The translations under genes and the position numbers were made by a program. The notes under the pieces are model-generated. The model saw only the letters and a program-made list of their open reading frames with translations, was not told the DNA's origin and ran no database searches. Positions 12,914 to 33,462 of a stretch of 33,715 nucleotides of DNA are shown here, piece by piece. The stretch lies in assembly GCA_023475025.1 (NCBI GenBank), contig JAMCWB010000057.1, positions 1 through 33,715 on the forward strand. The letters are read 5' to 3'. Position 1 is the stretch's first letter. Every line of letters starts with the position of its first letter. The DNA comes from Gammaproteobacteria bacterium (lineage in GTDB: Bacteria > Pseudomonadota > Gammaproteobacteria > Pseudomonadales > Pseudomonadaceae).

Positions 12914-14087
12914 GTTACCCGGCTTGAATTTCTTCCTTGGCCAGGATGTGGATATGTTGCGTGATTCAGTGGCCGCCTTTGCCGCCGCTGAAATTGCCCC
13001 GCTCGCCCAGGCCGCCGACCGCGACGACCAGTTTCCCGCTGGCCTCTGGCGCAAATTGGGTGACCTGGGCCTGCTCGGGCTGACCGTGCCTGAGACCTAT
13101 GGCGGTGCCGGCATGGGCTACCTGGCGCATATGGTAGCCATGGAAGAGATTTCCCGTGCCGCTGGCGGCATTGGCCTGTCCTACGGCGCGCACTCCAATC
13201 TCTGCGTCAACCAGATCAACCGCAACGGAAGTGAAGAGCAGAAGCGCCGCTTTCTGCCCCGGCTGATCAGTGGCGAGCATATCGGTGCGCTGGCCATGAG
13301 CGAGGCCGAAGCCGGCTCGGATGTGGTCAGCATGCGCCTGCGCGCCGAGCGCCAGGGTGATCACTATGTGCTCAACGGCAGCAAGATGTGGATCACCAAC
13401 GGCCCCGACTGCGACATTCTGGTGGTCTACGCCAAGACCGATCCCGGCGCCGGCGCGCGTGGCATGACCGCCTTTATCCTGGAGACCGACAGCCCCGGTT
13501 TCAGCGTGGCCCAGCGGCTCGATAAACTGGGCATGCGCGGCTCGCCGACCGGTGAGCTGGTGTTCGACAACGTCCGCGTGCCCGTCGATCAGGTGCTCGG
13601 CGGCAAGGGCGAGGGGGCCCGGGTGTTGATGAGCGGCCTGGATTACGAGCGCGCCGTGCTCAGCGGCGGCCCGCTGGGGCTGATGCAGGCAGCCATGGAT
13701 ATCGTGCTGCCCTATGTCCACGAGCGCAAACAGTTCGGTCAGAGTATCGGCGAATTCCAGTTGATCCAGGGCAAGCTGGCCGACATGTACACCACCCTGC
13801 AGGCCTGCCGCGCCTACCTCTACGCCGTCGGCCGGCAACTGGATGAACTGGGTGACCAGCACCTGCGCCAGGTACGCAAGGACTGCGCCGGGGTGATCCT
13901 GTATACCGCGGAAAAAGCCACCTGGCTGACCGGCGAGGCGATCCAGATTCTCGGGGGCAACGGCTATATCAATGACTACCCGACCGGCCGCCTGTGGCGC
14001 GATGCCAAGCTGTACGAGATCGGTGCCGGTACCAGCGAGATCCGGCGCATGCTGATTGGCCGCGAACTCTTTGCCGAAACGCATTGA
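12906..14087 (+). CDS. liuA: Isovaleryl-CoA dehydrogenase
   Basis: LiuA oxidises isovaleryl-CoA to 3-methylcrotonyl-CoA in leucine breakdown, passing electrons to ETF. The 393-residue acyl-CoA dehydrogenase has the FAD/substrate motifs [10 protein letters not shown] and [10 protein letters not shown]. The catalytic glutamate is in the isovaleryl-type place (E248 in [15 protein letters not shown]) rather than the short-chain position, which supports the assignment. C-terminal marks are [13 protein letters not shown] and [10 protein letters not shown]. It begins inside the end of liuR, so translation is coupled. LiuB follows after 24 bp. Confidence 0.95.
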
Positions 14088-14111
14088 TCCCCGGGCCATG
14101 ATGGAGCGTCT

Positions 14112-15719: not shown

Positions 15720-15762
15720 CCCACGGCAGCACACAACCCAAGGCCTTGACTCGAGCCTGACC

Positions 15763-16587
15763 ATGAACGAGCACAGCATGACCGACTTCAGCACCCTGGA
15801 ACTCACCGTCAGTCAGACCGGCGTGGCCACCCTGTGGCTGAACCGGCCAGACAAGAACAACGCCTTCAACGCTGCCATGATTGCCGAGCTGCTGGCGGCA
15901 CTGGATGCGGTCAAGGCTAACCCGGCAGTGCGTTTTCTGTTGCTGCGCGGACATGGCCGGCACTTCTCCGCCGGGGCCGATCTGGAATGGATGCGCGCCG
16001 CCGCCGAGCTGGACTATAACGCCAACCTGCAGGATGCCCGCGAGCTGGCCGAGGTCATGGTCAGCCTCTATCAACTGCCGGTACCCACCCTGGCGGTGGT
16101 ACAGGGGGCGGCCTATGGCGGTGCGCTGGGCCTGATCAGTTGCTGTGATATGGCGATTGGCAGCCTCGACAGCCAGTTCTGCCTGTCGGAAGTGCGCATC
16201 GGCCTGACCCCGGCGGTGATCAGCCCCTTTGTGGTCAAGGCCTTGGGTGAACGTCAGGCGCGGCGCTATGCACTGACTGCCGAAGCCTTCAGTGGTGAGC
16301 AGGCGGCGGCCATGGGCTTGCTGCATGCCGCTTACCCGGCCAGCGAACTGGATCAGGCCGTGGAAAACTGGTGCGCCCGCTTGCTGGGCAACAGCCCAGC
16401 CGCCATGCGCGCGACCAAGGGCCTGCTGCAGGAGGTCAAACATGGCGAACTCAGCCCCGCCCTGCGCCGTTATACCGAGGCCGCCATTGCCCGCATCCGC
16501 GTCAGTCCCGAAGGACAGGAAGGGTTGAACGCCTTCCTGGCCAAGCGCGACCCGAACTGGCGCAACCTGCCAACAGATACAGACTGA
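15763..16587 (+). CDS. liuC: Methylglutaconyl-CoA hydratase (enoyl-CoA hydratase family)
   Basis: LiuC hydrates 3-methylglutaconyl-CoA to HMG-CoA. The 274-residue crotonase-fold protein has an oxyanion-hole motif (HFSAGADLEWM), a second one (QGAAYGGALGLISCCDMAI) and FCLSEVRIGLTPAVISPFV. This last is characteristic of the methylglutaconyl-CoA hydratase group. Two near-equal starts, 15763 and 15778, both have weak Shine-Dalgarno sites. It sits between liuB and liuD, as in other pseudomonads. Confidence 0.92.
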   Translation: MNEHSMTDFSTLELTVSQTGVATLWLNRPDKNNAFNAAMIAELLAALDAVKANPAVRFLLLRGHGRHFSAGADLEWMRAAAELDYNANLQDARELAEVMVSLYQLPVPTLAVVQGAAYGGALGLISCCDMAIGSLDSQFCLSEVRIGLTPAVISPFVVKALGERQARRYALTAEAFSGEQAAAMGLLHAAYPASELDQAVENWCARLLGNSPAAMRATKGLLQEVKHGELSPALRRYTEAAIARIRVSPEGQEGLNAFLAKRDPNWRNLPTDTD

Positions 16588-16622
16588 CCCATGCCCCGCC
16601 CATACCACCCGAGGACAGCCCG

Positions 16623-18542
16623 ATGTCCCAGACGCTACTGATTGCCAACCGGGGTGAAATTGCCTGCCGTATCATCCGCAGCGCCCGCGCATTGGGCATC
16701 CATACGGTGGCGGTCTACAGCGACAGTGACCGCAACGCGCCCCATGTGCAACTGGCTGACCGCGCCATTGCGCTGGGCGGCAGTCGCCCGGCCGACAGCT
16801 ACCTGAGCATCGACAAGCTGATTGCCGCAGCCAGGGCCAGTGGGGCCGAAGCGGTGCACCCGGGTTATGGCTTTCTGGCCGAAAATGCTGCCTTTGCCGA
16901 GGCCTGCAGCGCGGCTGGGCTGTGTTTTGTCGGCCCCTCGGCTGCAGCGATCAGCGCCATGGGCAGTAAATCTGCGGCCAAGGCGCTGATGGCCGAGGCC
17001 GGCGTGCCGCTGGTGCCCGGCTATCACGCCAAGGATCAGAGTCTGCCGGCCCTGCGCGCGGCAGCTGAGCAGATTGGCTACCCGTTGCTGCTCAAGGCCA
17101 GTGCCGGCGGCGGTGGCAAGGGCATGAAAGTCGTGCGCGCCGACAGCGAACTGGACGACGCCCTGGCCTCGGCCCAGCGCGAAGCACAGAGCGCCTTTGG
17201 CGACCCGCAACTGCTGCTGGAAAAATACCTGGAGCACACCCGGCATATCGAAGTGCAGATGCTTGCCGACCAGCAGGGCCATTGCGTCTACCTGCACGAC
17301 CGTGACTGCTCGATCCAGCGCCGGCACCAGAAGGTGCTGGAGGAAGCCCCCGCGCCGGGGCTGTCCGCTGAGCTGCGGCGGCAGATGGGCGAGGCGGCGG
17401 TGCGCGCGGCCCAGGCGATCGATTATGTCGGCGCCGGGACCATCGAGTTTCTGCTGGACCCGGACGGGCAGTTCTACTTCATGGAAATGAACACCCGGCT
17501 GCAGGTCGAGCACCCGGTCACCGAAGCCATCACCGGGCTGGACCTGGTGGCCTGGCAGCTGCGCATCGCCGCCGGTGAAGCCTTCCCACTGCAACAGGCC
17601 GAGATCCCCTGCCAGGGCCATGCCCTGGAAGTGCGCCTGTATGCCGAAGACCCGCAGCAGGATTTTTTACCCGCCAGTGGCAGCCTGACCCTGTACCGCG
17701 AGCCTGCGCCCGGCCCGGGGCGGCGGGTCGACAGCGGCGTGCATGAGGGCGAGCTGATTTCACCCTGGTACGACCCCATGCTGGCCAAGCTGATTGCCTG
17801 GGGCGATAACCGCGAACAGGCGCGCATGCGCCTGCTGGCAATGCTCGACGAGACCGCGGTTGGCGGCCTGAAAAGCAACTTGCGGCTGCTCAAACAGCTA
17901 CTCAAACACCCGGCCTTTACCGCCGGCACACTGGATACCGGCTTTATTCCTGAGCACCAGGCGGCCCTGCTGACACCCCTGGCACCGCTGGATGAGCGCT
18001 TCTGGGCCCAGGCTGCCAGCGCCTGGTTGCACAGCCTGCCCGATAGCCCGCGCGCAGATGACCCGCACTCGCCCTGGGCGCAGCTCAGCGGCTGGCAACT
18101 GGGCCTGCCGACAGCAATCAGCCTGACCCTGCAACAGGGCGAGCAGCAGGAGCAAGGCTGCTTTAGACTAAGCGACCTGCCCAGCAGCGGGCGCTATTAT
18201 CGCCGTGGCGACCAGGTATTTCTGCCCTGGGACGGCGACTGGTTGGCGGTGCAACAGCGTGATCCGCTGGCCAGTCGCACCCAGGCGGTGCCGGAAGGTG
18301 ACCTGAGCGCCCCGATGAACGGCAGCGTCGTACGCTTGTTGGTCCAGGCTGGCGACAGGGTAAGCGCCGGCCAGACCCTGCTGGTACTGGAAGCGATGAA
18401 AATGGAACACAGCCTGCGCGCTCCCGTCGATGGAATGGTCAGCGCGGTACTCTGCCAGGAAGGCGCCATGATCACCGAAGGTCAGACCCTGATCAGCCTG
18501 GACGAGGACAGTCATGCCCAGCCACAGCCCGCAACTGATTGA
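16623..18542 (+). CDS. liuD: Methylcrotonyl-CoA carboxylase, biotin-containing (alpha) subunit
   Basis: LiuD carboxylates its bound biotin with bicarbonate and ATP. The 639-residue protein has the biotin carboxylase N-domain (LIANRGEIACRIIRSA), the ATP-grasp glycine loop (KASAGGGGKGMKVV), HDRDCSIQRRHQKVLEEAPAP and EMNTRLQVEHPVTE. The C-terminal biotinyl domain carries the biotin lysine K593 in EAMKMEH. GAGGA precedes the ATG. The last 29 bp overlap the start of the MFS gene, so the latter is translated with it. The pathway's last enzyme, HMG-CoA lyase (liuE), is not next to it. Confidence 0.95.
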   Translation: MSQTLLIANRGEIACRIIRSARALGIHTVAVYSDSDRNAPHVQLADRAIALGGSRPADSYLSIDKLIAAARASGAEAVHPGYGFLAENAAFAEACSAAGLCFVGPSAAAISAMGSKSAAKALMAEAGVPLVPGYHAKDQSLPALRAAAEQIGYPLLLKASAGGGGKGMKVVRADSELDDALASAQREAQSAFGDPQLLLEKYLEHTRHIEVQMLADQQGHCVYLHDRDCSIQRRHQKVLEEAPAPGLSAELRRQMGEAAVRAAQAIDYVGAGTIEFLLDPDGQFYFMEMNTRLQVEHPVTEAITGLDLVAWQLRIAAGEAFPLQQAEIPCQGHALEVRLYAEDPQQDFLPASGSLTLYREPAPGPGRRVDSGVHEGELISPWYDPMLAKLIAWGDNREQARMRLLAMLDETAVGGLKSNLRLLKQLLKHPAFTAGTLDTGFIPEHQAALLTPLAPLDERFWAQAASAWLHSLPDSPRADDPHSPWAQLSGWQLGLPTAISLTLQQGEQQEQGCFRLSDLPSSGRYYRRGDQVFLPWDGDWLAVQQRDPLASRTQAVPEGDLSAPMNGSVVRLLVQAGDRVSAGQTLLVLEAMKMEHSLRAPVDGMVSAVLCQEGAMITEGQTLISLDEDSHAQPQPATD

Positions 18543-19746: not shown

Positions 19747-20580
19747 TTGATCCGTCAGAGAGCATGCTGGTGCCTGCTGTTGCTCACAGGGTTACTTATA
19801 GCTGCCGGCTCCACGTCAGCGACTCCAGCACCGACAGCCACTGAACCCCCTTTGCAGGCTCTGGTCGCCGATGTCTGGCCCTGGGGGTATATGGATGATC
19901 AGGAACAACCGCAAGGCATCATTGTTGACCTGTTCCGGGAACTGGAAAGCCGCAGCGGCAAGCCCATAGAGCTGCGCCTGCTACCTCATCAACGGGTGTT
20001 GCTGGAGCTGGAACAGGGCCAGGGTGATCTGAGTGTGCTGTTTGCCAACCCGGCCGCTGACCGTTTCGCCGAGCGCAGTGCTCCGGTGCTGCAATCGCGC
20101 TTTTTCCTTATGGCACCACGCGAGCGGACAGGTGACCTCAACCTGGCCAGCCTGGCCGGTGAACCGGTTGGCTTTATCCGCGGCACCTATTACGGCCGGG
20201 CATTCGAAGCCGACCAAGCCATCAACAAGATAGCGGTGAGTAGCCTGGAGCAGGGCGTGATGATGCTGCAAGCCGGACGCTTGCAGGCCATGATCAGTAG
20301 TGAGCAAACCCTGTATCACACCTTCCAGAAGCTGGCATTACTGAGCGATGACTGGCGTCTGGCACTGCACTCCGAACAACAGACAGCCTACCTCTATCGC
20401 CAGCGTCAGGTCTTGCCGGCCCACCGAGCCGCCCCGCTGGTGGAGGCCATAGAACAGTTGCGCGCTAGCGGTGAACTGCAGCATCTGGTGGGTGTGCCGG
20501 CGCTTGATCAGCCGCCTGCAGCGCATTCTGCAGCAGACAGGCAATCGTCATCGGCCCCACCCCGCCCGGTACCGGAGTGA
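19747..20580 (+). CDS. Periplasmic solute-binding protein (SBP_bac_3 type)
   Basis: The 277-residue protein has a signal peptide ([21 protein letters not shown], cut near TSA). It then has a family-3 solute-binding fold ([61 protein letters not shown]). Such proteins bind amino acids or act as sensory receptors. No ABC permease genes are nearby. The start is a TTG with GGAG ten bases upstream; no ATG would keep the signal peptide. The fold should end near GELQHLVG, but reading continues about 28 residues (Pro/Ala/Ser rich) antisense into folD. This suggests an ancestral stop was lost. Confidence 0.8.
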
Positions 20581-21370
20581 TCCAGGCTGCACGCTGACTG
20601 GCAGCAGCAAAGTCCACATCACCCACCAACCGGCCATCGGCCAGCCGGTTGATGCCAACATCCAGCACCACGGCACCCGGCTTGATCCACTCCCCCCGGA
20701 CCAGCCCCGGCACCCCGGTGGCCACCACCAGAATATCCGCCTGCGCGACCAGTGCCGGCAAATCCCGCGTTGCCTTGTGCGCAATAGTGACCGTGGCTTC
20801 GGCGCGCAGTAATTCCAGCGCCATCGGGCGGCCCACAATGGTCGAGGCACCAATCACCAGCGCCTGCTGCCCCCTACAGTCGACACCCGCCTGCGCCAGC
20901 AAACGCATGCAACCCTTGGGCGTACAGGGGCGCAGGCCGGGCAGACCCGCCGCCAGCAAGCCCAGGTTCTGCGGGTGAAAGCCATCCACATCCTTGTGCG
21001 GGGCAATTTCCTGTAGCAGTGCCCGGCTGTCCAGACCAACCGGCAGCGGCAACTGCAGCAAGATACCGTGTACTGCCGGATCAGCATTCAATTGCCGAAT
21101 CAGCGCCAGCAGCTCGGCCTGAGTAGTCGCGGCAGATAGGCTGCGACTGAAGGACTGCACCCCGACCTCGGCGCAGGCACGGATCTTGTGCTGCACATAG
21201 ATCTGGGACGCCGGATCATCACCGACCAGAATTACCGCCAGGCCAGGCGGCGCCAAGCCGGCGGCCTGGCGCTGGCGGATGCGGGCAGCCAGTTCACTGC
21301 GCAACTGCGCGGCCAGGGCACGGCCATCCAGCAACCGGGCAGTGACCTGCGGTTCGGCAAGCTCAGCCAT
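20465..21370 (-). CDS. folD: Methylenetetrahydrofolate dehydrogenase/cyclohydrolase
   Basis: FolD converts 5,10-methylene-THF to 10-formyl-THF with NADP. The 301-residue protein has [21 protein letters not shown], the QLPLPVG motif, [11 protein letters not shown], the Rossmann segment [16 protein letters not shown], and the signature [11 protein letters not shown]. The catalytic lysine of the YVxxK motif is present (YVQHK). It starts 3 nt after the stop of the FMN-binding synthase gene and is the last gene of the gmaS-mgsABC-folD operon. Here it should process the methyl group taken from N-methylated amines, perhaps as a second copy beside a housekeeping folD. Its end overlaps the solute-binding gene by 116 bp. 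Confidence 0.95.
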
Positions 21371-21373
21371 GGC

Positions 21374-22699
21374 TCAATACCCGTGTTGCCCGGGCACCCA
21401 CTGGGTCCCGGCCAGCGGTACCCGCGCCATGGCGGCGGATTCCACCGTCAAGGCCACCAGATCTTCCGGGTCCAGATTGAGCAGGTGCGACTTGCCGCAA
21501 GCGCGCGCCATGGTCTGTGCTTCCAGCACCATCACCCGCAGGTAGTTGGCCAGACGACGACCGCCGTCGACCGGGTCCAGACGCTTGGCCAGCTCCGGAT
21601 CCTGGGTGGTGATACCCGCCGGGTCCTGGCCGTTCTGCCAGTCATCGTAATAGCCCGCCGCCGAACCCAACTCACGCAACTCCGCATCCCAGCGCGGGTG
21701 GTTGTCACCCAGGGCGATCAAGGCTGCGGTGCCAATGGCAACCGCATCGGCGCCCAGCGCCATGGCCTTGGCCACATCGGCGCCACTGCGGATGCCGCCG
21801 GAGACAATCAACTGCACCTCGCGGTGCATATCCATTTCCTGCAAGGCCTGCACTGCCTGCGGGATGGCGCTGAGAATCGGGATGCCGACATGCTCGATGA
21901 ATACATCCTGGGTCGCTGCCGTACCGCCCTGCATGCCATCGAGCACGATCACGTCGGCCCCGGCCTTGACCGCCAGTTTGACGTCGTAATAGGGCCGGCT
22001 GGCACCGATCTTGACGTAGATCGGCTTTTCCCAGTCGGTAATCTCGCGCAGCTCGGCAATCTTGATTGCCAGATCATCCGGGCCGGTCCAGTCCGGATGC
22101 CGGCAGGCACTGCGCTGATCAACGCCGATCGGCAGGGTGCGCATACCCGCCACCCGCTCGGTCACCTTCATGCCCAGCAGCATGCCGCCGCCACCCGGTT
22201 TGGCACCCTGGCCCAGCACCACCTCGATGGCATCGGCCTTGCGCAGGTCATCCGGGTTCATGCCGTAGCGCGAGGGCAGGTACTGATAAACCAGATGCTT
22301 CGACTGGCCGCGTTCTTCCGGGGTCATGCCGCCGTCACCCGTGGTGGTGCTGGTACCCACCATGCTGGCACCACGCCCGAGGGCTTCCTTGGCCTGGGCC
22401 GAGAGGGCACCGAAGCTCATGCCGGCAATGGTGACCGGTATGTCGAGATGAATGGGTTTCCTGGCAAAGCGGGTACCGAGCACCACGTTGGTACCGCATT
22501 TTTCCCGGTAGCCTTCCAGCGGGTAGCGCGACATGCTGGCGCCGAGCAGCAGCAGGTCATCAAAATGCGGCACCTTGCGCTTGGTGCCACCACCGCGAAT
22601 ATCATAGATGCCGGTTTCGGCGGCGCGCTGGATTTCCTGGATGGTCAGGCGATCAAAAGTGGCCGACTCACGCAGCACCGGTGGGTATTTGTCTGTCAT
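21374..22699 (-). CDS. mgsC: N-methylglutamate synthase subunit C (FMN-binding glutamate synthase-type domain)
   Basis: The 441-residue protein corresponds to the FMN/synthase domain of glutamate synthase, as a separate polypeptide. Marks are PVTIAGMSFGALSAQAKEAL, STTTGDGGMTPEERG, GQGAKPGGGGML, VIVLDGMQGGTAA and VSGGIRSGADVAKAMALGADAVAIGTAAL, the last being the phosphate-binding barrel end. With MgsA and MgsB it should join methylamine to the glutamate skeleton, giving N-methylglutamate. The same three-piece set is also called GlxD (with GlxB, GlxC) in rhizobia. Naming follows the gmaS and mgd context. It begins 23 nt after mgsB. Confidence 0.85.
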   Translation of the reverse strand: MTDKYPPVLRESATFDRLTIQEIQRAAETGIYDIRGGGTKRKVPHFDDLLLLGASMSRYPLEGYREKCGTNVVLGTRFARKPIHLDIPVTIAGMSFGALSAQAKEALGRGASMVGTSTTTGDGGMTPEERGQSKHLVYQYLPSRYGMNPDDLRKADAIEVVLGQGAKPGGGGMLLGMKVTERVAGMRTLPIGVDQRSACRHPDWTGPDDLAIKIAELREITDWEKPIYVKIGASRPYYDVKLAVKAGADVIVLDGMQGGTAATQDVFIEHVGIPILSAIPQAVQALQEMDMHREVQLIVSGGIRSGADVAKAMALGADAVAIGTAALIALGDNHPRWDAELRELGSAAGYYDDWQNGQDPAGITTQDPELAKRLDPVDGGRRLANYLRVMVLEAQTMARACGKSHLLNLDPEDLVALTVESAAMARVPLAGTQWVPGQHGY

Positions 22700-22722: not shown

Positions 22723-23406
22723 TCAGTAGGCCGCCGCGTTGTCGACCTTGAAGTTGTAGAGTTCACGTGCCGAGCCATAGCGCTTGAAGCTGGCCGGATC
22801 GGCGTCATAACCGGCGCGGTGCAGCAGTTCGGCCAGCTCTTCCAGATGCTCGGCACGCATGGGCTTCTCGACACAATCCGAGCCCAGCGACTTCACCGTG
22901 CCGCGCACATAGATACGGGTTTCATACAGCGAATCACCCAGCGCATCGCCGGCATCGCCGAGTACCACCACGCGTCCGGCCTGGGCCATGAAACAGCTCA
23001 TATGGCCAATGCTGCCACCGACCACAATATCCGCGCCCTTGAGCGAGATACCGCAACGCGCGCCGGCATCGCCGTCGATGATCAACAGGCCGCCATGGGC
23101 GGTGGCACCGGCGGATTGCGAGGCATTGCCCTTGATATGCACGCGGCCAGACATCATGTTTTCCGCCACACCGACGCCGACATTGCCATTTACCGTGACG
23201 CTGGCTTTCTGGTTCATGCCGGCACAGTAGTAGCCGGTATGGCCCTGAATCTCGATCGCCAGCCCTTCGCTCAGGCCAACCGCCAGGTTGTGCTTGCCGG
23301 CGGGGTTCTTGACCACCCACTCACGCTCGCTGACCTGCCCGGCCTGAGCGTGCAATTGCTGGTTGAGTTCGCGCACCGTGCTGTGCGCCAGATCGATATG
23401 TTGCAT
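22723..23406 (-). CDS. mgsB: N-methylglutamate synthase subunit B (GXGXG-domain protein)
   Basis: The 227-residue protein is built of the glycine-rich right-handed beta-helix of the glutamate synthase C-terminal domain. Repeats run from about residue 50 to 180 (VNGNVGVGVAENMMSG, HIKGNASQSAG, GGLLIIDGDAGARCG, VVGGSIGHMS, VVVLGDAGDALG). It is a structural subunit holding the amidotransferase and synthase parts together. GAGGAG precedes the ATG at 23406. An upstream in-frame start would overlap mgsA and is not needed. It sits between mgsA (10 nt) and mgsC (23 nt). Confidence 0.88.
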   Translation of the reverse strand: MQHIDLAHSTVRELNQQLHAQAGQVSEREWVVKNPAGKHNLAVGLSEGLAIEIQGHTGYYCAGMNQKASVTVNGNVGVGVAENMMSGRVHIKGNASQSAGATAHGGLLIIDGDAGARCGISLKGADIVVGGSIGHMSCFMAQAGRVVVLGDAGDALGDSLYETRIYVRGTVKSLGSDCVEKPMRAEHLEELAELLHRAGYDADPASFKRYGSARELYNFKVDNAAAY

Positions 23407-23416
23407 GCTGCTCTCC

Positions 23417-24322
23417 TCAGGCCGCTGGCCGTTCCCAGATGTACAGGGTGGCCGGTTCCGGCTCCCAGACCCGGGCGCTGTCAATGCCAGGCAAGCCGGC
23501 CAGCGCCTGATACTCCGATGCCATGGCGACGTAATCTTCGGTTTCCGCCAACACGGCCGGCTTGCAGGCAATCGGGTCGCGGATCACCGCAAAGCCCTGC
23601 CGGGTGCCGATGGCAAAGGTAAAAAAACCGTCCAGATCCTGCAGCGCATGGTCCAACGCCTGTTGCAGGGTGTCGCCCTGGCGCAGGCGCCAGGTCAGAT
23701 AGCCAGCAGCCACTTCGCTGTCATTCTCGGTCTCGAACACCAGACCCTGACGTTGCAGGCGCTGACGCAGGCGGCTGTGGTTGGACAGCGAACCGTTGTG
23801 CACCAGGCAGAGGTCATTGCCGGTGGAGAAGGGGTGGCTGCCCTCCATGGTCACAGCGCTTTCGGTAGCCATGCGGGTATGCCCGATGATATGGCTGCCG
23901 CGCATGCCCGGCAGGTTGAAGCGCGCACTGATCTCCTGTGGCAGACCCATCCCCTTGAGAATCTCGATACTCTGGCCGCAGCTCATGATGCGGATATCCG
24001 GGGCCAGCTCGGCCAGTGCTGCACGCACGGCAGCTTCCTCGGCATCGGTCTTGAGCACCACCGCATCGGCATTGCGAAACCAGTCCAGCGCACAGCCCAG
24101 CCGACTTTCCAGTTCGCCCAGCAGTACCGGCCAGGCGTAGCCCGGCTCGGCGCTCTGCAGGGTCAGCTTGACCCAGCTGTCTGCCACCTCATCGCCGTAG
24201 ATGGCAAAGCCCGCACTGTCCGGCCCGCGGTCGGTCATCGCCAGCAACATGGGCGCAAAGAGTGCACCCAACTGGTCTTCCAGGGCTGGTTTTTTCAGAT
24301 ACAACCCGACAATTCCACACAT
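23417..24322 (-). CDS. mgsA: N-methylglutamate synthase subunit A (class II glutamine amidotransferase)
   Basis: The 301-residue Ntn-type amidotransferase has the catalytic Cys2 exposed after Met removal (MCGIVGLYL). RGPDSAGFAI, GHTRMATESAV, HNGSLSNH and DSEVAAGYL form the glutamine site. In N-methylglutamate synthase this subunit is thought to process gamma-glutamylmethylamide or glutamine and release the amine for the synthase part. It is 25 nt downstream of the glutamine synthetase-like gene and 10 nt ahead of mgsB, in one operon. It is also known as GlxB in rhizobia. Confidence 0.88.
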   Translation of the reverse strand: MCGIVGLYLKKPALEDQLGALFAPMLLAMTDRGPDSAGFAIYGDEVADSWVKLTLQSAEPGYAWPVLLGELESRLGCALDWFRNADAVVLKTDAEEAAVRAALAELAPDIRIMSCGQSIEILKGMGLPQEISARFNLPGMRGSHIIGHTRMATESAVTMEGSHPFSTGNDLCLVHNGSLSNHSRLRQRLQRQGLVFETENDSEVAAGYLTWRLRQGDTLQQALDHALQDLDGFFTFAIGTRQGFAVIRDPIACKPAVLAETEDYVAMASEYQALAGLPGIDSARVWEPEPATLYIWERPAA

Positions 24323-24347: not shown

Positions 24348-25682
24348 TCAGAAAAATTCGGTATAGCGCTGCACTTCCCAGTCGCTGACATGCCGGCTGT
24401 ACTCGACCCACTCGGCCCGCTTGAGGGCGATAAACTCATCAACAATTTCATGCCCCAGGGTGTCGCGGAACAAAGGGTCGTCTTCCAGCGCCTGGCAGGC
24501 CTCGTTGAGATTCTGCGGCAGGGTGGCGATACCCCGTGCGGCAATGTCTTCCAGGCTCATGCTGTAGAGGTTTTCATTGCACGGCTCGCCGGGGTCCAGC
24601 TCGCGCTCGATGCCATCCAGCCCGGCGGCAATGATTGCAGCAGTGACCAGATAGGGGTTGCAGCCGGCATCCGGCAGGCGGTACTCGATACGTCCGTAGG
24701 GTATGCGCACCATGGCGGAACGGTTGTTGTCGCCATAGGCAACAAAGGCCGGCGCCCAGGTCGCCCCGGACAACGAACGCCCCACCACCAGGCGCTTGTA
24801 GGAATTCACCGTGGGTGCGGAAAAGGCGCACAGGGCCGGTGCGTGGGCCAGGAGGCCGGCGGCAAAGTGGTAGCCCAGTTTGGACAGGCCCATACCGCGC
24901 GGATCACTGTCATCCTGGAACAGGTTGGGCTTATTGGCATCGGCAATCGAGACATGAAAGTGCATGCCGTTGCCGGTGCGTGTGGCATCCGGCTTGGGCA
25001 TAAAGGAGCAGATAATGCCGAGCTCGTTGGCAATCTCACCGGCGGCCATGCGGAAGAAGGTAAAGCGGTCCGCCGAGGTCATGGCGTCGCTGTAGGTGTA
25101 ATTGATCTCGAACTGGCCGTTGGCGTCTTCATGGTCGATCTGATAGATGTCATAGCCGACCTGCTGCAAGGACTCGGTGAGCTTCTCGAGAAACTCACGC
25201 GAACGCGACAGCCCCTTGTAGTCATAGCAGGGCTTGTCCAGGTTATCGCTGCTGTCGACCAGCTGCAGCTGGCCCTGACCATCACGGCGAAACAGGCTGA
25301 ACTCCGGCTCAACACCCGTATTCATGGTCCAGCCGCGGGCACTCAGACGGGCGATCTGTCGCTGCAGCACATAGCGGGTATCGTAGGGGTGCGGCTCGCC
25401 ATTGACGTGCCCGATGCACAACACCCGGCCATAGCCCGGCTGCCAGGGCACCGGGGTCAGGGTCGACAGATCACCCTTGGCCATAAAGTCGGGACCGTGG
25501 GGCTCCATACCCATGCCGCAGACAGCAAAACCGGCAAAACCGGCGCCCGCCTCGGCGACGGCGGCCAACCCACTGACGGGGACGGATTTGGTTTTTGCCG
25601 AGCCATGAATGTCGACAAACTGGGCCAGCACGTATTTGATGCCGTGCTGCTCGATAAGCTGCTGCGTTTCAGTGGGCAACAT
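24348..25682 (-). CDS. gmaS: Gamma-glutamylmethylamide synthetase (GlnT-type glutamine synthetase)
   Basis: The 444-residue glutamine synthetase-fold enzyme is expected to make gamma-glutamylmethylamide from glutamate, methylamine and ATP. It has the beta-grasp N-domain ([19 protein letters not shown]), the metal/glutamate site ([24 protein letters not shown]), NGMHFHVS, the ATP site (NSYKRLVVG) and [26 protein letters not shown]. No adenylylation-loop motif is obvious. It belongs to the GlnT/GMAS branch, and the context with mgsABC and mgd decides between GMAS and ordinary glutamine synthetase. The start at 25682 has AGGAG upstream. It is the first gene of the operon, behind a sigma-54 promoter. 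Confidence 0.87.
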
Positions 25683-25739
25683 GGGTAAGGCGCTCCTGCT
25701 GGTTATTCCGCTTGAGAATTTATATTTCACCAGAGGAAA

Positions 25740-25755
25740 TGCAATTGCCTTGCCA
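25740..25755 (-). promoter_or_regulatory. Sigma-54 promoter of the gmaS-mgsABC-folD operon
   Basis: Read on the minus strand, TGGCAA-N5-TTGCA has the invariant GG and GC at -24 and -12 and exact 5-base spacing. It differs from TGGCAC-N5-TTGCW in one base. The predicted start near 25729 is about 47 nt before the gmaS ATG. This implies RpoN dependence and nitrogen control of methylamine use. Confidence 0.75.
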
Positions 25756-25873
25756 GAATGGCTGATCACAGCAAAAAAGTAGCCAATGGCACGAAAGCTG
25801 CCGGGCCAAGGGGTTATCGCAGCCACGACAGCCGGAATGACGCTGTTCGCGCTTGCATTGGGCAGGCGCCTGA

Positions 25874-25890: not shown

Positions 25891-25924
25891 AAAATTAAAT
25901 TACTGAACAGAAAACGTGCAACCC

Positions 25925-26524
25925 ATGAGCAAAACTGCTGACGCGCCACCCAAACTCAAGCTGGAACAATATCTCGGCCTGCAGATCCGCCGCCAACGCC
26001 AGGCCCAGGGCCTGAAGATTACCGACGTGGCGCGCATCGCCGGCATCAGCCAGGGCATGCTGAGCAAGATCGAGAACGCCCAGGTCTCCACCAGCCTGGA
26101 TACCCTGACCCGGCTCTGTGATGTGCTCGGCCTGCCGATGTCCAAACTGTTCAGCCAGTATGACCAGCAGGGTGGTGGCGCCTTGCTGGTAACCAGTGGT
26201 GAAGGTCTGGAGGTGGTGCGCCGGGGCACCGAGAAAGGCCATACCTATCAGTTGCTCAACCATACCCGCGGGCCGAAGAAAAGCTTCGAGGCCTACCTGA
26301 TCACCATGGACGATGCCGCCGAGGAATTCCCCACCTTCTCGCATCCGGGTACCGAATTCATACATCTATTGGATGGTCGCTTGATCTACCGCCATGGCAA
26401 CCAGCTGTATCCGATGGGGCCCGGTGACAGCCTGACCTTTGATGCCGAGGTACCCCACGGGCCGGAAACCCTGATCGAAGTACCGCTGCGTCTGTTGTCG
26501 ATCATGAACTACGATCAGCACTGA
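25925..26524 (+). CDS. XRE-family regulator with C-terminal cupin domain
   Basis: The 199-residue regulator has an HTH_XRE domain at about residues 18-75 ([42 protein letters not shown]) and a cupin domain at about 115-190 ([36 protein letters not shown]). The PuuR-like architecture is common beside amine and amino acid catabolism genes, where the cupin binds a small ligand. It is divergent from gmaS across 242 bp and is the likely local regulator of the amine locus. The ATG at 25925 is preferred over a GTG three codons earlier. No good Shine-Dalgarno for either. Confidence 0.88.
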
Positions 26525-26830: not shown

Positions 26831-27499
26831 ATGATGAACCCGATTTTCCGTTTGCTGACGCCCGACAGTCTGGGCCTTAAAGTTATCGCCTTTTCTGTCC
26901 ATGGGCTGTGCAATCGCCACTTTACCCGCTGCCTGAACGAGCGTCTGATTGAACTGGTTGAGCAACTGGATCTGGCCAAAAGCCGACTGCATATGGCCGG
27001 CTTTGATGACCTGCGCTTGCAGGTCGGACGCTCAACGCGTCGCTACCCCGCCTCGCCCCAGGCCCTGCTGCAACAGTTTCTGCGTGACGGGCAGCTGCGC
27101 AGCCTGGCGCCGGTGGTTGACCTGTATAACCACTGGTCACTGGTATCCGGACTCTCGATTGGCGCGCATGACCTGCGCTATCTGTCCCTGCCAGTCAGCC
27201 TGACCCTGGCACAAGGACATGAAGAATTTATCGGCCTGGGTAGCGGGCAGGTGCAACAGGTACCATCCGGCGAGTACCTGTACCTGGATGCTGACCAGCA
27301 GGTGATCTGTCGTATGGACTACCGCCAGTGCGCAGCGACTGCCTTGCAGGACGATAGTCGTGAAGCGCTAGTCATCGTGCAGGGCCATGCTGATACCCCG
27401 CTGGGCCATTTGCGCGCCACCGCCGAAGCGCTGCAAGCCGATCTCAACCGCTACTGCACCGGCCCTGATCAGACCAACCAATTGCGCCAATCGGCCTGA
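26831..27499 (+). CDS. B3/B4-domain protein (PheRS beta-like tRNA-editing fold)
   Basis: The 222-residue soluble protein resembles the B3/B4 domain of phenylalanyl-tRNA synthetase beta, found in stand-alone proteins of mostly unknown function. The conserved core is LRSLAPVVDLYNHWSLVSGLSIGAHDL, spanning about residues 91-118, followed by EEFIGLGSG, GEYLYLDADQQVICRMDYRQC and the C-terminal REALVIVQGHA. AAGGA precedes the ATG. The chemoreceptor gene starts 9 nt after its stop, so both are one operon behind the sigma-54 promoter. A role in editing a mischarged amino acid or in binding a small amino acid-like ligand is possible but not shown by the sequence. Confidence 0.8.
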   Translation: MMNPIFRLLTPDSLGLKVIAFSVHGLCNRHFTRCLNERLIELVEQLDLAKSRLHMAGFDDLRLQVGRSTRRYPASPQALLQQFLRDGQLRSLAPVVDLYNHWSLVSGLSIGAHDLRYLSLPVSLTLAQGHEEFIGLGSGQVQQVPSGEYLYLDADQQVICRMDYRQCAATALQDDSREALVIVQGHADTPLGHLRATAEALQADLNRYCTGPDQTNQLRQSA

Positions 27500-27508
27500 G
27501 GAGCTGCC

Positions 27509-29326
27509 ATGAGCTGGTTTTCCCGCCCTGCACGCCCGCAACCCGACCAAGCCAGGCTGGACGACTGGCAACAGGCCTTGCTGGCTGGAGACTGGACCAG
27601 CGCGCTGCAACTGGAACAGGGCCGTATGCCAGCCAGTCTGCGCGAGCGTCTGGACAAGCCACAGCACAGCACGGATCAGGATGCCGGTGTTGCGCTTCTG
27701 CTGGGCCGGGTCCAGGCGCTGCAACGGCACGCTCGCCAGGCCATCGAACAGGTCGAAGGCACCTTTGCTGAAATTGCCGCACGCAGCAGCGAGCAGCTGT
27801 CCTTCCTGGCCCAGACCCGGGACAACCTCGGCGGCAGCAGTCGCGGCGCCGAACAATTGCGCACCGAGATGGACCTTGAATTGCGCGGCACCCAGGCATT
27901 TTTCAGCAGCGAATTTGCCGAGCTGGCCGGCACCCTGGCAGAACGTAGCCAGTCTTCACGCCGGGTGATTGATGCTATCGACCAGATTGGCCGTACCGTG
28001 CAGTTACTCTCGATCAATGCCGCGATTGAAGCAGCCCATGCCGGCGAACAAGGCCGCGGCTTTGCCGTGGTCGCCCAGGAAATTCGCGAGCTGGCACAAA
28101 GCACCCAGGACAATGCCCAGCAAGCCTATACCCAGATTGACCTGACGCCGGTGAGCGAGCAGCTGCAAACCCTGTTGCAGGATGCGGATACCCGCCTGGA
28201 ACTGCTCGGTCAGCGGGTCAGCGAATCCCTGCAGACCCTGCATCGCCAGCTGGACCACATGGCCGACCACCTGAATGAGATTGAAGCCAACAACAAGGTC
28301 ATGGCCGCCGGCGTTGCCCTGGGCGAAGCCGCCGATCAACACCTGCTGGCACGCAACAACTGGAGCCTGGATCTTTTGCACGACTTGCATTCACTGCACA
28401 GTGAACTGCCAGCGGCGCAGCGACCCCAGGCTCTGCAACGCTTGCTGGCGGAAGAAAAACTGCTGGGCGGCAATCAGGCTGATCGCCTCGCGGATATCCA
28501 GCAACGCGGCGTGCTGCGCATTGCCATCGAGCCCCATTTCAAGGGCCTGTCCTTCCGCCAGCACCCTGGTGACCCGCTGCAGGGCATGGACGCCGAACTG
28601 GCTCGCGCCTTTGCCCGCTGGCTGGGGGTAAGCTGCGAGTTTGTTGAATACCCCTGGGATCGTTGCCTGCAATTGCTGGAGGCAGGCGTACGGCGTCGTG
28701 AACCCGAGGCGGATCTGGTCTGGAGCGCCATGCCACCGGTGCCCGACTATGACCAGGTGGCCTTTTCCGACCCCTACGTCTTTCTTCCCTATGTCTTGGC
28801 CAAGCGCAGCGGAGACAGCCGCATTCAGCGCCTGGAGGACCTGCAGGGCAAAACCCTCGGTTGCATCAATGACCCGGCAGCCCTGGAGGTGCTTGAGCAG
28901 GCCGGGCTGCGCTGGGAAAGCAATCGCCATACCCCGGGCGGGCGAATCGAACTGGCCAATCTGCTGGCCTACAACGATCAGAGCCTGATCCATGATTGCC
29001 TGGCCAACGGCACTGTGGACGCGTTCGCCGTCGACCTGCCGATTTATCACTGGGCCTGTACCGGCAGCGACAGCCCCTGGTCAGGCCAGCTGGAAATCAT
29101 CCCCGGCAACCTGAGTAAAGATCTCTGGTTCTACTGTGCTGCCGTGGCAAATCAGCCCGGCAATGCCGGGCTACTCAAGGCCATCAATCAGTTTCTGTCT
29201 GAATTCCTGCCCGGCAAGGAATACCGCCAACTGGTCGAACGCTGGCAAGGCAAGGTCTATAGCGCTGACCGCTGGGCCTTTCAGCCTGGCGTGCATAACC
29301 TGAAAAGCCTCGAGACCAAGTGCTGA
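27509..29326 (+). CDS. Soluble chemoreceptor fused to a solute-binding-protein domain
   Basis: The 605-residue protein has no signal peptide and no transmembrane helix. Residues about 60-300 form an antiparallel chemoreceptor coiled coil, whose hairpin tip is conserved at about 164-200 (LLSINAAIEAAHAGEQGRGF, then AVVAQEIRELAQST). This is the region that contacts CheA and CheW. Residues about 333-580 form a family-3 periplasmic-binding-type domain (QQRGVLRIAIEPHFKGLSFR, MDAELARAFARWLGV, DLVWSAMPPVPDYDQVAFSDPY, LANGTVDAFAVDL). That domain normally works outside the cytoplasm. The likely role is chemotaxis or related signalling in response to a cytoplasmic amino acid-like ligand. There is no C-terminal CheR-binding pentapeptide. 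GGAG precedes the ATG, 9 nt after the B3/B4 gene. Confidence 0.85.
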   Translation: MSWFSRPARPQPDQARLDDWQQALLAGDWTSALQLEQGRMPASLRERLDKPQHSTDQDAGVALLLGRVQALQRHARQAIEQVEGTFAEIAARSSEQLSFLAQTRDNLGGSSRGAEQLRTEMDLELRGTQAFFSSEFAELAGTLAERSQSSRRVIDAIDQIGRTVQLLSINAAIEAAHAGEQGRGFAVVAQEIRELAQSTQDNAQQAYTQIDLTPVSEQLQTLLQDADTRLELLGQRVSESLQTLHRQLDHMADHLNEIEANNKVMAAGVALGEAADQHLLARNNWSLDLLHDLHSLHSELPAAQRPQALQRLLAEEKLLGGNQADRLADIQQRGVLRIAIEPHFKGLSFRQHPGDPLQGMDAELARAFARWLGVSCEFVEYPWDRCLQLLEAGVRRREPEADLVWSAMPPVPDYDQVAFSDPYVFLPYVLAKRSGDSRIQRLEDLQGKTLGCINDPAALEVLEQAGLRWESNRHTPGGRIELANLLAYNDQSLIHDCLANGTVDAFAVDLPIYHWACTGSDSPWSGQLEIIPGNLSKDLWFYCAAVANQPGNAGLLKAINQFLSEFLPGKEYRQLVERWQGKVYSADRWAFQPGVHNLKSLETKC

Positions 29327-29344: not shown

Positions 29345-30826
29345 TCACACCTCGACGCGGAAGCTCTCCAGCATCGGGGGTACGCCGGGGAACATGCCAA
29401 TTGCTGCCATCACGCCACACAGGATGCCAAACACCAGGCCGGGGATGATCCAGCGGCCGATATGGCCCAGGCTCTTGCCACGCTCCTTGCAGCCGATCAA
29501 CCCGAGGTTGTCCAGCAGCACGGTCAGCGACCAGCCGAACACCGGATTGACCAGTGCCGAAGAGACAATCACGATCGCAGCCGATTCGGTGGTCTTGCCT
29601 TCGCGGGTCATCTGCATACCGGCTTCCATCAGCGGCAGGAACACACCAACGATCAGCGCCACACTGAGCACCGGTGGCCAGATCGCCAGATCCATCGGAT
29701 AACCAAGCAGAGCGGTGATAATGCAGAGCACACCGGTCAACACTGCACCGGCTGCAATCGGCCGCTTGGCAATCGCCGCCGGCACGATATAGGTACCCCA
29801 GGACGACGCAATATTGCCGCCCCCGAGCAGACTGCCGACCACTTGCCGGGTGCCGGCGGTGCACATGGTGTCATCAATGTTCATCAACACTTTCTGCGCC
29901 TTGGGCGGGAAGTTGAGCTGCTGGAACACCCGGTGACCGAGGAAATCCGGTGACCACATGGCCACCGCCAGTACCGCAAACGGCGCTACCGCCAGAAAAT
30001 GATGAAATTCGGGCAGGCCCAGTTGCCAGCCGGTGTCCTCACCCCACCAATAGGCCGGGTTCATATTGGGAATGCCCGGCGTGGTGGTGAACTCAAAGGG
30101 CGCGCCCATGGCAAAGGCGATACTGGCAGCCATCACCGAACCGAGCGGAATCGCCAGCCAGCGCATCTTGATATGCTCCAGCCAGGCATACATGACGATG
30201 GTCGCAATCAGGATGACAAAGGCAATATGCCCGCCCTCGAAACCTTCAGCCCAGCTGAACAGCTTGGCGATCTGCGAGGTAATACCGATAAAGCCCAGAT
30301 ACAGCAACAAACCGCCACAGACCCCGTTACTGGTCAGCCGCGCCAGCAGGCTGCCGCCTTTGGTGATACCCAGGATGAAACCCAGCACCCCGATCATGAT
30401 GCCGAGCGCCATCGGGTGGCCGCCAGAGGCAACAATCAGGGGGATCATCGGAATCAGCGGACCATGGGTGCCTGGCAGGTTGCTGTTGGGGTTGATAAAG
30501 CCGGAAACCAGAATCACGAAGAGCACGGCAGCGATGAGCATTTCAAAGCGCACGTTCTCGGTGACAAACTCAGCTGACAGGCCAAGCTGAGCCGCAAAGG
30601 TACTGACAATGGCGGCCACCATGACCACCTTGCCGATAGTTGCCGCCATGGCCGGCACCCAGTCCTCGAACTCGAAGCGGTAATCACGGCCGGGCAGGTT
30701 GATACGCCAGCGTCTGGGAGCCATGACCTCAAGCTCGTGCTCCAGGTATTCGCGCCGGCTCTTGAACGCGGAACGGGGCTTACGCTGGCTTTGATAGTCG
30801 CTATTGTTGTGCATTGTGGCGCTCAT
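29345..30826 (-). CDS. DUF3360-family putative membrane transporter
   Basis: The 493-residue polytopic protein has about 11-13 hydrophobic segments after a charged N-terminus (SRREYLEHELEVMAPRRWR, YRFEFEDWVPAMAATIGKV). Conserved stretches GTHGPLIPMIPLIVASGGHPMA, WWGEDTGWQLGLP, WSPDFLGHRVFQQ and SSWGTYIVPAAIAKRP recall the DUF3360 family, distantly like SulP/NCS2 carriers. The substrate is unknown. It lies between the two halves of the methylamine locus, converging with the chemoreceptor gene at 18 bp. Uptake of an amine or amino acid is an inference from position. ATG at 30814 is a possible second start; both have weak ribosome sites. Confidence 0.82.
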   Translation of the reverse strand: MSATMHNNSDYQSQRKPRSAFKSRREYLEHELEVMAPRRWRINLPGRDYRFEFEDWVPAMAATIGKVVMVAAIVSTFAAQLGLSAEFVTENVRFEMLIAAVLFVILVSGFINPNSNLPGTHGPLIPMIPLIVASGGHPMALGIMIGVLGFILGITKGGSLLARLTSNGVCGGLLLYLGFIGITSQIAKLFSWAEGFEGGHIAFVILIATIVMYAWLEHIKMRWLAIPLGSVMAASIAFAMGAPFEFTTTPGIPNMNPAYWWGEDTGWQLGLPEFHHFLAVAPFAVLAVAMWSPDFLGHRVFQQLNFPPKAQKVLMNIDDTMCTAGTRQVVGSLLGGGNIASSWGTYIVPAAIAKRPIAAGAVLTGVLCIITALLGYPMDLAIWPPVLSVALIVGVFLPLMEAGMQMTREGKTTESAAIVIVSSALVNPVFGWSLTVLLDNLGLIGCKERGKSLGHIGRWIIPGLVFGILCGVMAAIGMFPGVPPMLESFRVEV

Positions 30827-31320: not shown

Positions 31321-32178
31321 ATGTCCACTTCCTACACCATGACCATCAGCTGCCCGGCCAACTCCGGCATTGTTGCCGCCGTCACCACCTATCTGTCCAA
31401 CTGCGGCTGCTACATCAGCGAAATGGCCCAGTTTGATGACGAGTTCCATGACCGCTTCTTCATGCGCGCGGTGTTTCGTTTCAATACCGACAGCCCGTCC
31501 AATGCCGATAGCCTGAGCGAGGGCTTTGGCAGGGTAGCTGCCGAGTTCGACATGCAATGGGCCCTGCATGACAACAGCACGCCGATGAAAGTGATACTCA
31601 TGGTCAGCAAATACGACCATTGCCTGACCGATCTGCTGTATCGCTACCACAAGGGCGAGATGAAGATGCAGGTCAGCGCCATCGTCTCCAACCACCTGGA
31701 CCTGCGGCCGATGGCAGAGCGCGAGGGCATCCGCTTTGTCTATCTGCCGGTCAATGCCGACACCAAGGCAGACCAGGAAGCCGAGCTGCGCAAGCTGATC
31801 GAAGAGACGGGCACCCAACTGGTGGTGCTGGCGCGCTATATGCAAATTCTGTCTGACACCATGTGCCAGTACCTGGCCGGCCGGGCGATCAATATCCACC
31901 ACTCCTTTCTGCCCGGCTTCAAGGGCGCCAAGCCCTACCACCAGGCCTGGGAACGTGGCGTAAAACTCATCGGCGCCACCGCCCACTACGTCACCTCGGA
32001 TCTGGACGAAGGGCCGATCATCGAGCAGGAAGTGGAACGCGTCGATCACGGCCTGCGCCCGGACGACCTGGTCGCCATCGGCCGCGATATCGAAACCCTG
32101 ACGCTGTCGCGGGCAGTGAAATACCACCTTGAACACCGGGTATTTCTCAACGGCGAACGCACCGTGATCTTCCGCTAA
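31321..32178 (+). CDS. purU: Formyltetrahydrofolate deformylase
   Basis: PurU hydrolyses 10-formyl-THF to THF and formate. The 285-residue protein has an N-terminal ACT domain (about 1-80, PANSGIVAAVTTYLSNCGCYI) and a C-terminal formyltransferase fold. Catalytic residues of the latter are visible (N191 and H193 in NIHHSFLPGFKGAKPYHQA; D229 in TSDLDEGPII). GAGGAG precedes the ATG. It heads the operon with mgdA and mgdB. Together with FolD of the opposite arm it would drain the methyl carbon as formate and recycle THF. Its place by sarcosine-oxidase-type genes is common in pseudomonads. Confidence 0.95.
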   Translation: MSTSYTMTISCPANSGIVAAVTTYLSNCGCYISEMAQFDDEFHDRFFMRAVFRFNTDSPSNADSLSEGFGRVAAEFDMQWALHDNSTPMKVILMVSKYDHCLTDLLYRYHKGEMKMQVSAIVSNHLDLRPMAEREGIRFVYLPVNADTKADQEAELRKLIEETGTQLVVLARYMQILSDTMCQYLAGRAINIHHSFLPGFKGAKPYHQAWERGVKLIGATAHYVTSDLDEGPIIEQEVERVDHGLRPDDLVAIGRDIETLTLSRAVKYHLEHRVFLNGERTVIFR

Positions 32179-32217: not shown

Positions 32218-33462
32218 ATGCCTTTCAATCTGCTCAAATATGGTCTGTCCGCCGACTACCCGGCCGAGGTCGACCTGCCACCACCGGTAGAGCTCAAGCC
32301 CCGCTATGACGTGGTGATCATCGGTGCCGGCGGCCACGGCCTGGCCATTGCCTACTACCTCGCCCGCTATCACGGCATCACCAAGGTAGCGGTGCTGGAC
32401 AAGGGCTACCTCGGTGGCGGCAACACCGCACGCAACACCGCAGTGATCCGCTCCAATTACCTGACTCCGGAAGGGGTACGCTTCTATTCCGAATCGGTAC
32501 GCCTGTTCAAGAACCTGGCCAACGAGTTCGACTTCAACATCATGTATTCCGAGCGCGGGCAACTGACCCTGGCGCACACCGATGCCACCGTGCGTGCCTT
32601 CCGCCAGCGTGCCGAAGTGAACACCCACTTTGGCGGGCGCACCGAGATGCTTGACCGTCAGCAGGTTGCCGAGCTGGTGCCGACACTGAATATGGACCCC
32701 GGTCATTTACCGGTGCTGGCCGGCCTCTGGCACAAGGACGGCGCCACTGCGCGCCATGACGCCGTGGCCTGGGGCTATGCCAAACAGGCGGCCAAGCACG
32801 GGGTGGAAATCCACCAGCTGACGGACGTGCAGGATCTGGTGATCGAGCAAGGCCGGCTGACCGGGGTGAAAACCAACCGTGGCACCGTGCAATGCGGCTG
32901 CGCCGTGCAGGCAGTGGCCGGGCACAGCTCGCGATTGCTGGATATGGCCGGCATTCGAGCGCCGATTCTCAGCTACCCCTTGCAGGCCATGGTCACCCAG
33001 CCGTTCAAGCCCTTTCTCGACCCCCTGGTCAGCTCCTCGGCACTGCACTGCTATGTGCAGCAGACCAGTCGCGGCGAAGTGGTGTTCGGTGGTGGTTCCG
33101 ACCCCTACCCGCTTTACCACACCCGCTCCACCCTGGAATTGAAGGAAAGTCTGATGGCCGCCGCCCTGGAGATGTTCCCCTTTCTCGCCCAGGCCCGCCT
33201 GATGCGCCAGTGGAGCGGGACCACCGATATGACCCCGGATTACAGCCCGATCATGGGCTGCTCACCGGTGGATAACTATTACCTGGACGCCGGCTGGGGC
33301 ACCTGGGGCTTCAAGGCCACGCCGATCTGCGGCCAGACCATGGCCGCACTGATTGCCAGTGACGGCAAAACAGTCCCGGAGGTGATCCAGCCCTTTGCCC
33401 TCGAACGTTTCAGCCGCTTCCAGCAAGTCAACGAAATGGGCGCCACCGCCGCCAGCCATTGA
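32218..33462 (+). CDS. mgdA: Sarcosine oxidase beta-type flavoprotein, likely N-methylglutamate dehydrogenase subunit A
   Basis: The 414-residue SoxB-like flavoprotein oxidises an N-methyl group. It has the FAD Rossmann motif at residues 32-50 (DVVIIGAGGHGLAIAYYLA) and RNTAVIRSNYL. The ARHDAVAWG motif contains the histidine (H180) that binds FMN covalently in heterotetrameric sarcosine oxidase. DMTPDYSPIMG and the C-terminal GWGTWGFKATP follow. Gene order purU-soxB-soxD with gmaS and mgsABC nearby favours N-methylglutamate dehydrogenase (MgdA) over sarcosine oxidase, though homology alone cannot separate them. GGAGG precedes the ATG, 39 nt after purU. Confidence 0.85.
   Translation: MPFNLLKYGLSADYPAEVDLPPPVELKPRYDVVIIGAGGHGLAIAYYLARYHGITKVAVLDKGYLGGGNTARNTAVIRSNYLTPEGVRFYSESVRLFKNLANEFDFNIMYSERGQLTLAHTDATVRAFRQRAEVNTHFGGRTEMLDRQQVAELVPTLNMDPGHLPVLAGLWHKDGATARHDAVAWGYAKQAAKHGVEIHQLTDVQDLVIEQGRLTGVKTNRGTVQCGCAVQAVAGHSSRLLDMAGIRAPILSYPLQAMVTQPFKPFLDPLVSSSALHCYVQQTSRGEVVFGGGSDPYPLYHTRSTLELKESLMAAALEMFPFLAQARLMRQWSGTTDMTPDYSPIMGCSPVDNYYLDAGWGTWGFKATPICGQTMAALIASDGKTVPEVIQPFALERFSRFQQVNEMGATAASH

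Follow-up and report, generated by a model that had tools for sequence, protein, structure and literature searches.

A rare family of chemoreceptors with a C-terminal solute-binding domain, predicted to be cytoplasmic, is associated with the N-methylglutamate pathway

One gene in the 33,715-nucleotide stretch of DNA analysed here (the window) encodes a single continuous protein in which a chemoreceptor signalling hairpin is followed by a C-terminal family-3 solute-binding domain. Its predicted location is the cytoplasm, and it belongs to a genuine family that is small and rare. Its gene lies inside a cluster that, judged from its mgsABC-, gmaS- and mgdA-like genes, serves methylamine use by the N-methylglutamate (NMG) pathway, and the link between receptor and pathway holds beyond this adjacency, across genomes in which the genes are unlinked. 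From this link and from the pocket, we put slightly below an even chance the proposal that methylamine (methylammonium) is the ligand of the receptor, whose signal would go to the chemotaxis kinase. The broader proposal, that in this family an amino acid-binding domain was moved inside the cell and its pocket re-tooled for methylamine, so that NMG bacteria would steer by internal methylamine, is plausible, although we hold it with somewhat less confidence than an even chance would imply.

Both domains score above their cut-offs within a single frame (Pfam scan and open reading frame list; Table 1). The MCPsignal match covers residues 141-269 and reaches 82.5 bits against a curated cut-off of 34.6, and the C-terminal part of the protein carries both the SBP_bac_3 profile match and a predicted two-lobed fold; the solute-binding domain, residues 325-585, is thus part of a 605-residue protein and not a free one. 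The first-pass annotation had described a full hairpin joined to a complete family-3 domain, with the sensor behind the signalling bundle, no signal peptide and no membrane helix. This description stands: the order of the domains, the AlphaFold2 model, in which helices 55-177 and 179-299 form the hairpin (with low confidence at the tip), and hydropathy all agree with a predicted cytoplasmic location. The N-terminus is free of hydrophobic stretches and lacks the export signal of a periplasmic ABC amino acid-binding protein, and hydropathy finds no membrane segment in the receptor (maximum 0.84), which rules out a missed membrane helix there. Across 120 family sequences, two (P0094 and P0052) reach 1.65-1.68, and these stretches were not judged to be membrane helices. 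A Pfam scan of the receptor at E 0.1 gave no match to CZB, PAS or Cache domains, a methylation consensus has no match in the protein, and no aromatic C-terminal tether for CheR occurs among the 120 family sequences. Each of the PDB matches listed (59 and 43) covers one domain or the other, and none of these solved proteins contains both. The nearest solved relatives of the solute-binding domain are mostly amino acid-binding proteins; entries with D11A, Y14A, S70A, S72A and D161A mutants occur among the fold matches, and ancestors of cyclohexadienyl dehydratase, an enzyme, are among the nearest sequence matches.

A search of 5.8 billion protein sequences (E 1e-20, 7997 candidates scored) returned 192 proteins, and both domains are present in all of the best 120 of these 192 matches, the query included. 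An assembly join or a frameshift is ruled out as the source of the fusion by the 119 other listed relatives with both domains and by five further genomes of the same genus that carry it. Named hosts include Halopseudomonas salegens, Pseudomonas, Stutzerimonas, Aquisalimonas, Marinomonas, Nitrincola, Marinobacterium, Methylophaga, Thalassospira and Rhodospirillaceae. An 84% match suggests that the own genus is probably Halopseudomonas. The receptor was found in 6 of 37 genomes of its own genus, in at least 7 of 398 genomes sampled across the phylum, in at least 1 of 321 Gammaproteobacteria (the own genome), in at least 5 of 289 Alphaproteobacteria and in at least 1 of 199 genomes from the genus of one Pseudomonas-type carrier; these counts are lower bounds because full scoring in the large samples was limited to about 3 to 6 candidates for each genome. 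Among 72,556 plasmid records there was no match at E 1e-50. One TGA is flagged inside the genomic match in G245, and one of the matches in G416 is flagged as well; the open reading frame list gives an intact 597-residue frame in G245 and a 595-residue frame in G416. One alphaproteobacterial genome carries a tandem pair of family receptor genes (G416:C3:466722-470534, L109).

In the window, the receptor gene sits between two groups of NMG-type genes, in the order FolD, MgsC, MgsB, MgsA and GmaS (minus strand), regulator, B3/4-domain protein and receptor (plus), DUF3360 protein (minus), PurU and MgdA (plus). The identity of the cluster follows from this order and from the mix of families, most profile matches being below their equivalog cut-offs; the Mgs and Mgd names are those that we take to apply from the NMG pathway, and we likewise assume the name GmaS for the glutamine synthetase-like product. 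The window ends after mgdA, and MgdB-D-like open reading frames come next in sister genomes, where we recognized by eye an MgdB-like (L117), MgdC-like (L105, L117, L118) and MgdD-like (L105, L118) product. All five receptor-carrying sister genomes show this order within the limits of their contigs, two of them without DUF3360. The DUF3360 gene possibly encodes a transporter for a pathway substrate; of the 6 same-genus clusters, 4 have it (one of them cut at a contig end) and 2 lack it. Only 9 bases separate the B3/4-domain gene from the receptor gene downstream, the two adjoin in all 6 same-genus carriers, and they probably form one operon. B3/4 is a domain of the phenylalanine-tRNA ligase beta subunit and here stands alone in an NMG cluster. 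Of 7 other carriers whose mgs regions were read, 6 have a relative of the HTH and cupin regulator close to these genes. Elsewhere in the window, a PAS-PAS-GGDEF protein (8261-9577, plus strand) has a GGDEF match above cut-off and matches to blue-light (LOV) families below theirs, and a terpene/leucine-type degradation cluster (12723-18542, plus strand) comprises acyl-CoA dehydrogenase, carboxylase and enoyl-CoA hydratase genes, with gamma-carboxygeranoyl-CoA hydratase above its cut-off.

Table 1. Features of the receptor gene and its neighbourhood, in window coordinates
Feature	Position	Strand	Basis
FolD	20465..21370	-	Above cut-off
Glutamate synthase-like, probable MgsC, pathway marker here	21374..22699	-	Match below cut-off; name from the NMG pathway
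FwdC-like, probable MgsB, start uncertain, overlaps MgsA	22723..23571	-	Matches below cut-offs; name from the NMG pathway
Glutamine amidotransferase-like, probable N-methylglutamate synthase MgsA	23417..24322	-	Matches below cut-offs; name from the NMG pathway
Type III glutamine synthetase-like, probable gamma-glutamylmethylamide synthetase GmaS, start uncertain	24348..25826	-	TIGR03105, 679 bits (cut-off 470)
HTH and cupin regulator, PuuR-like (below that model's cut-off)	25916..26524	+	Profile scans
B3/4-domain protein	26831..27499	+	Pfam PF03483, E 4e-16
Predicted soluble chemoreceptor with C-terminal solute-binding domain, 605 aa	27509..29326	+	Open frame; MCPsignal and SBP_bac_3
Signalling hairpin, residues 55-299, antiparallel helices in model	27671..28405	+	AlphaFold2; MCPsignal 141-269
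Hairpin tip, residues 164-200, conserved	27998..28108	+	Alignment; comparison with the genome's other receptors
Family-3 solute-binding domain, residues 325-585, best-conserved part of family	28481..29263	+
Residues 406-413, S-A-M-P-P-V-P-D, in place of relatives' Ser...Arg carboxylate clamp	28724..28747	+	Sequence alignments
D509, counterpart of presumed amine-binding Asp D161 (LAO-binding protein), invariant in 119	29033..29035	+	Alignments
DUF3360 membrane protein, between receptor and purU	29345..30826	-	Pfam; same-genus clusters
PurU, formyltetrahydrofolate deformylase	31321..32178	+	Above cut-off
Sarcosine oxidase beta-like, probable N-methylglutamate dehydrogenase subunit MgdA	32218..33462	+	454 bits (cut-off 529); name from the NMG pathway

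The association with the pathway extends to every carrier tested (15 of 15, in and outside the genus), with mgsC as the marker. Within the genus, mgsC at 94-100% identity is present in 6 of 6 receptor carriers and in none of 31 non-carriers; receptor and mgsC are linked there and so count as one joint inheritance unit. At the threshold of that search (E 1e-60), matches of 36-37% identity also pass in two genomes of the same order without the receptor (G053 and G045) and as a second copy in G029, and these are taken for mgsC paralogues. All 9 carriers outside the genus, Methylophaga aminisulfidivorans included, have mgsC at 76-93% identity (a second copy in three of them, 52% identical, was left out of the count). 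When 19 kb around mgsC was read in 7 of these 9, mgsA, mgsB and a gmaS-like gene lay beside it in 7 of 7 and mgdA-C near it in 4 of 7. In the phylum sample, with the mgsC background counted at E 1e-150, mgsC occurs in 44 of 398 genomes; all 7 receptor carriers are among these 44, and 37 of 391 non-carriers also have the gene. With the own genome left out, a one-sided Fisher test gives P = 1e-6 by genome and P = 4e-5 by genus (5/5 genera versus 25/207), the latter being the fairer figure since genomes are not independent. The single carrier in the Pseudomonas-type genus is uninformative because mgsC occurs in 46 of the 199 genomes sampled there. The connection to methylamine genes, for which the first-pass annotation had cited adjacency, is therefore stronger than adjacency.

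The pocket of the solute-binding domain was compared by alignment with solved relatives and with one exported solute-binding protein of the same genome. In such proteins we take Ser, Arg and Thr to hold the ligand's carboxylate, and D161 of the LAO-binding protein, here D509, to hold its amine. On this assignment the carboxylate clamp is absent from the receptor. In lobe 1, M-T-I-T-E-E-R of an arginine-binding ancestor becomes M-P-P-V-P-D, and the exported protein has S-M-S-I-T-E-E-R; the lost Arg falls opposite a gap, Tyr414 or, from the exported protein, Asp413, a placement that varies with the sequence alignment used. P409 and P410 do not vary in the 119 sequences, and a substitute for the lost Arg is not conserved (Arg occurs anywhere in 411-416 in 27 of 119). 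In lobe 2, the ancestor's Ser-Thr pair is replaced by P456, invariant in 119, and Ala, Gly or Val at 457. The other side of the pocket is retained: D509 in 119 of 119, E341 in 117 (Asp in 2), F344 in 117 and W383 in 119. These counts refer to an alignment (A2) of 119 of the 120 proteins, from which P0041, a 451-residue piece, was dropped; a second alignment (A1) holds 44 of the 120, and the query is in both. Mean column entropy is 1.21 bits in the solute-binding domain, 1.55 in the tip region and about 2.5 in the hairpin arms. In ordinary chemoreceptors the sensor is the most variable part, whereas here it is the best conserved, which suggests one shared ligand.

Loss of the clamp together with retention of D509, E341 and W383 favours methylamine or a close amine; of the ligands that would suit pocket and genome association alike, cytoplasmic methylamine is the simplest. 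The first-pass annotation had proposed a sensor for an internal amino acid or amine. The amine half of that proposal is favoured; glutamate, N-methylglutamate and gamma-glutamylmethylamide are disfavoured, the clamp being missing in all 119 sequences. A remodelled pocket that binds one of these three pathway amino acids in the cytoplasm is nevertheless conceivable, if unlikely. It would fit the mgsC association equally and would agree with the mostly amino acid-binding character of the nearest solved relatives, and four arginines (R337 and R468, invariant, and R350 and R433, nearly so, in 119 sequences) could form an alternative anion site that might hold a carboxylate another way. Against it stand the replaced or missing Ser and Arg of lobe 1, with two invariant prolines in their place, the loss of the Ser/Thr of lobe 2, and the S-I-T-E-E-R retained at the lobe-1 site by a typical exported solute-binding protein from this genome.

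Ammonium, di- or trimethylamine, ethanolamine or the general nitrogen state, instead of methylamine, is a rather improbable signal. Assimilation of ammonium is almost universal; the receptor, by contrast, came with the NMG pathway in each of the 15 carriers tested. Such a signal would, on the other side, be consistent with the Amt-type ammonium transporter gene that lies upstream of the receptor, with a 59-residue open reading frame between, in the Pseudomonas-type genome; in another carrier, a 59% identical Amt is encoded at a distance of about 5 kb from the NMG cluster. Both transporter genes also count in favour of methylamine as the ligand. Amine-binding sensors can also take several amines, according to the available text of PMC10104139. 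Near the receptor in the Pseudomonas-type genome, beside the transporter gene, a 328-residue PAS-MCP protein is encoded (L107:12898-13884, minus strand), whose MCPsignal match ends near its C-terminus.

Receptor and mgsC are adjacent only in the own genus; outside it the nearest pair, in the Pseudomonas-type carrier, is about 15.5 kb apart, and in the other eight carriers the two genes lie on other contigs or far apart. The neighbours of the receptor outside the genus, named by eye from open reading frames (ten were scanned with Pfam), are mostly housekeeping-like (such as parB/atp, aroQ/accBC and rsfS/rlmH) or unrelated, and operon neighbours were dropped as a clue to the ligand there. Because the genes are unlinked and the neighbours housekeeping-like, the association could reflect shared habitat: motile proteobacteria of sea and soil might often have both receptor and pathway, with a ligand that has nothing to do with methylamine. 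The presence of the receptor in only 7 of 44 pathway carriers is in keeping with this, and it means that the receptor is accessory and not needed for the NMG pathway. We consider such an indirect link improbable, given the association inside one genus (6/6 versus 0/31, the genes being linked there), its recurrence in the phylum sample, where five more genera show it, and the position of the receptor within the NMG cluster in its own genus.

The tip of the hairpin is conserved and divergent at once. None of the 119 aligned sequences departs from N170, A171, I173, A178, G182 or F185. Besides the fused receptor, 14 receptors were found in the genome; they have the signalling domain in common with it and differ in their QTN tips and in the membrane or PAS parts that, judged by eye from the first 60 residues, precede the hairpin. 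Residues 162-165, where these 14 have the QTN motif, read RTVQ in the fused receptor, and residue 177, an Arg in 13 of the 14, is His (His in 76 and Arg in 32 of the 119 family sequences). The positions that depart from the QTN...AAR pattern are, we assume, part of the trimer contacts in E. coli. With such a tip, the receptor need not couple to the common array, and it may form clusters of its own or serve another Che system; the departure from the pattern of the genome's other receptors is perhaps a sign of separate arrays. The genome has 8 matches to CheW-type domains. That the protein is no taxis receptor, its tip lying outside CheA arrays or its domain having turned enzyme or scaffold, is very improbable, for although the missing QTN motif, the replaced Arg177, the failure to find a methylation consensus match or a CheR tether and the cyclohexadienyl dehydratase ancestors among the nearest matches would suit it, the invariant tip residues and an MCPsignal score well above cut-off speak against it.

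If methylamine is the ligand, it would enter the cell, perhaps through an Amt-type carrier, and close the two lobes of the solute-binding domain; closure would move helix 302-315 and the C-terminal hairpin helix, and the change would run to the tip, which would contact CheW and CheA. The cell would thus track its own internal methylamine pool and not the outside concentration. Methylamine is a widespread source of nitrogen and carbon, and to our knowledge the ligand has been identified for few chemoreceptors of the cytoplasm. For the fused receptor, whose sensor domain is predicted soluble, the association across genomes leaves a few likely ligands, all cheap and on sale. If the methylamine proposal is true, it would provide a methylamine receptor that reads an internal pool, a second fold in which losing the carboxylate clamp turned an amino acid sensor into one for amines, and an intracellular methylamine sensor module.

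Among known systems, other receptors likewise mediate taxis to small one- or two-carbon compounds, namely HemAT and McpB for ethanol, whose sensing is described as cytoplasmic, and the methanol receptor MtpA (PMC7542364 and PMC12202990); they have other sensor parts and ligands. Among the papers listed by our literature searches, none dealt with chemotaxis to methylamine through a cytoplasmic receptor. A parallel in working is offered by the dCache_1AM amine sensors, which, according to PMC10104139, arose when an amino acid sensor lost its carboxylate-binding Arg and kept the Asp, a pattern that sets them apart from amino acid-binding dCache domains; a Methanosarcina member of the group has been found to bind methylamine at 35 uM. 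In both cases the carboxylate side is lost and the amine side kept, a resemblance of working only: the dCache_1AM fold is unrelated and normally extracytoplasmic, and the fused receptor has no Cache match. From family-3 proteins such as the LAO-binding protein, AncQR and Thermotoga ArgBP, the fused receptor differs in having no signal peptide, a hairpin ahead of the domain and no clamp.

Nor did any of the papers listed describe a hairpin fused to a C-terminal solute-binding domain. The general idea is already in print, in that solute-binding Pfam profiles also match sensor domains of cytosolic signalling systems (PMC9602780, in the text available). For the layout, TlpD of Helicobacter pylori, a soluble receptor with a C-terminal sensor, provides a precedent (PMC12871147, as far as its available text describes the protein). 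Both receptors have no membrane part and place the sensor behind the signalling hairpin, and canonical methylation sites are lacking in TlpD and were not found by consensus in the fused receptor. TlpD, by the same text, has PAS at its N-terminus and senses zinc through CZB, a small domain of helices, whereas the fused receptor has a 260-residue two-lobed solute-binding sensor and no CZB or PAS match. A cytoplasmic chemoreceptor with a C-terminal sensor is already known; a solute-binding domain as that sensor appears to be new.
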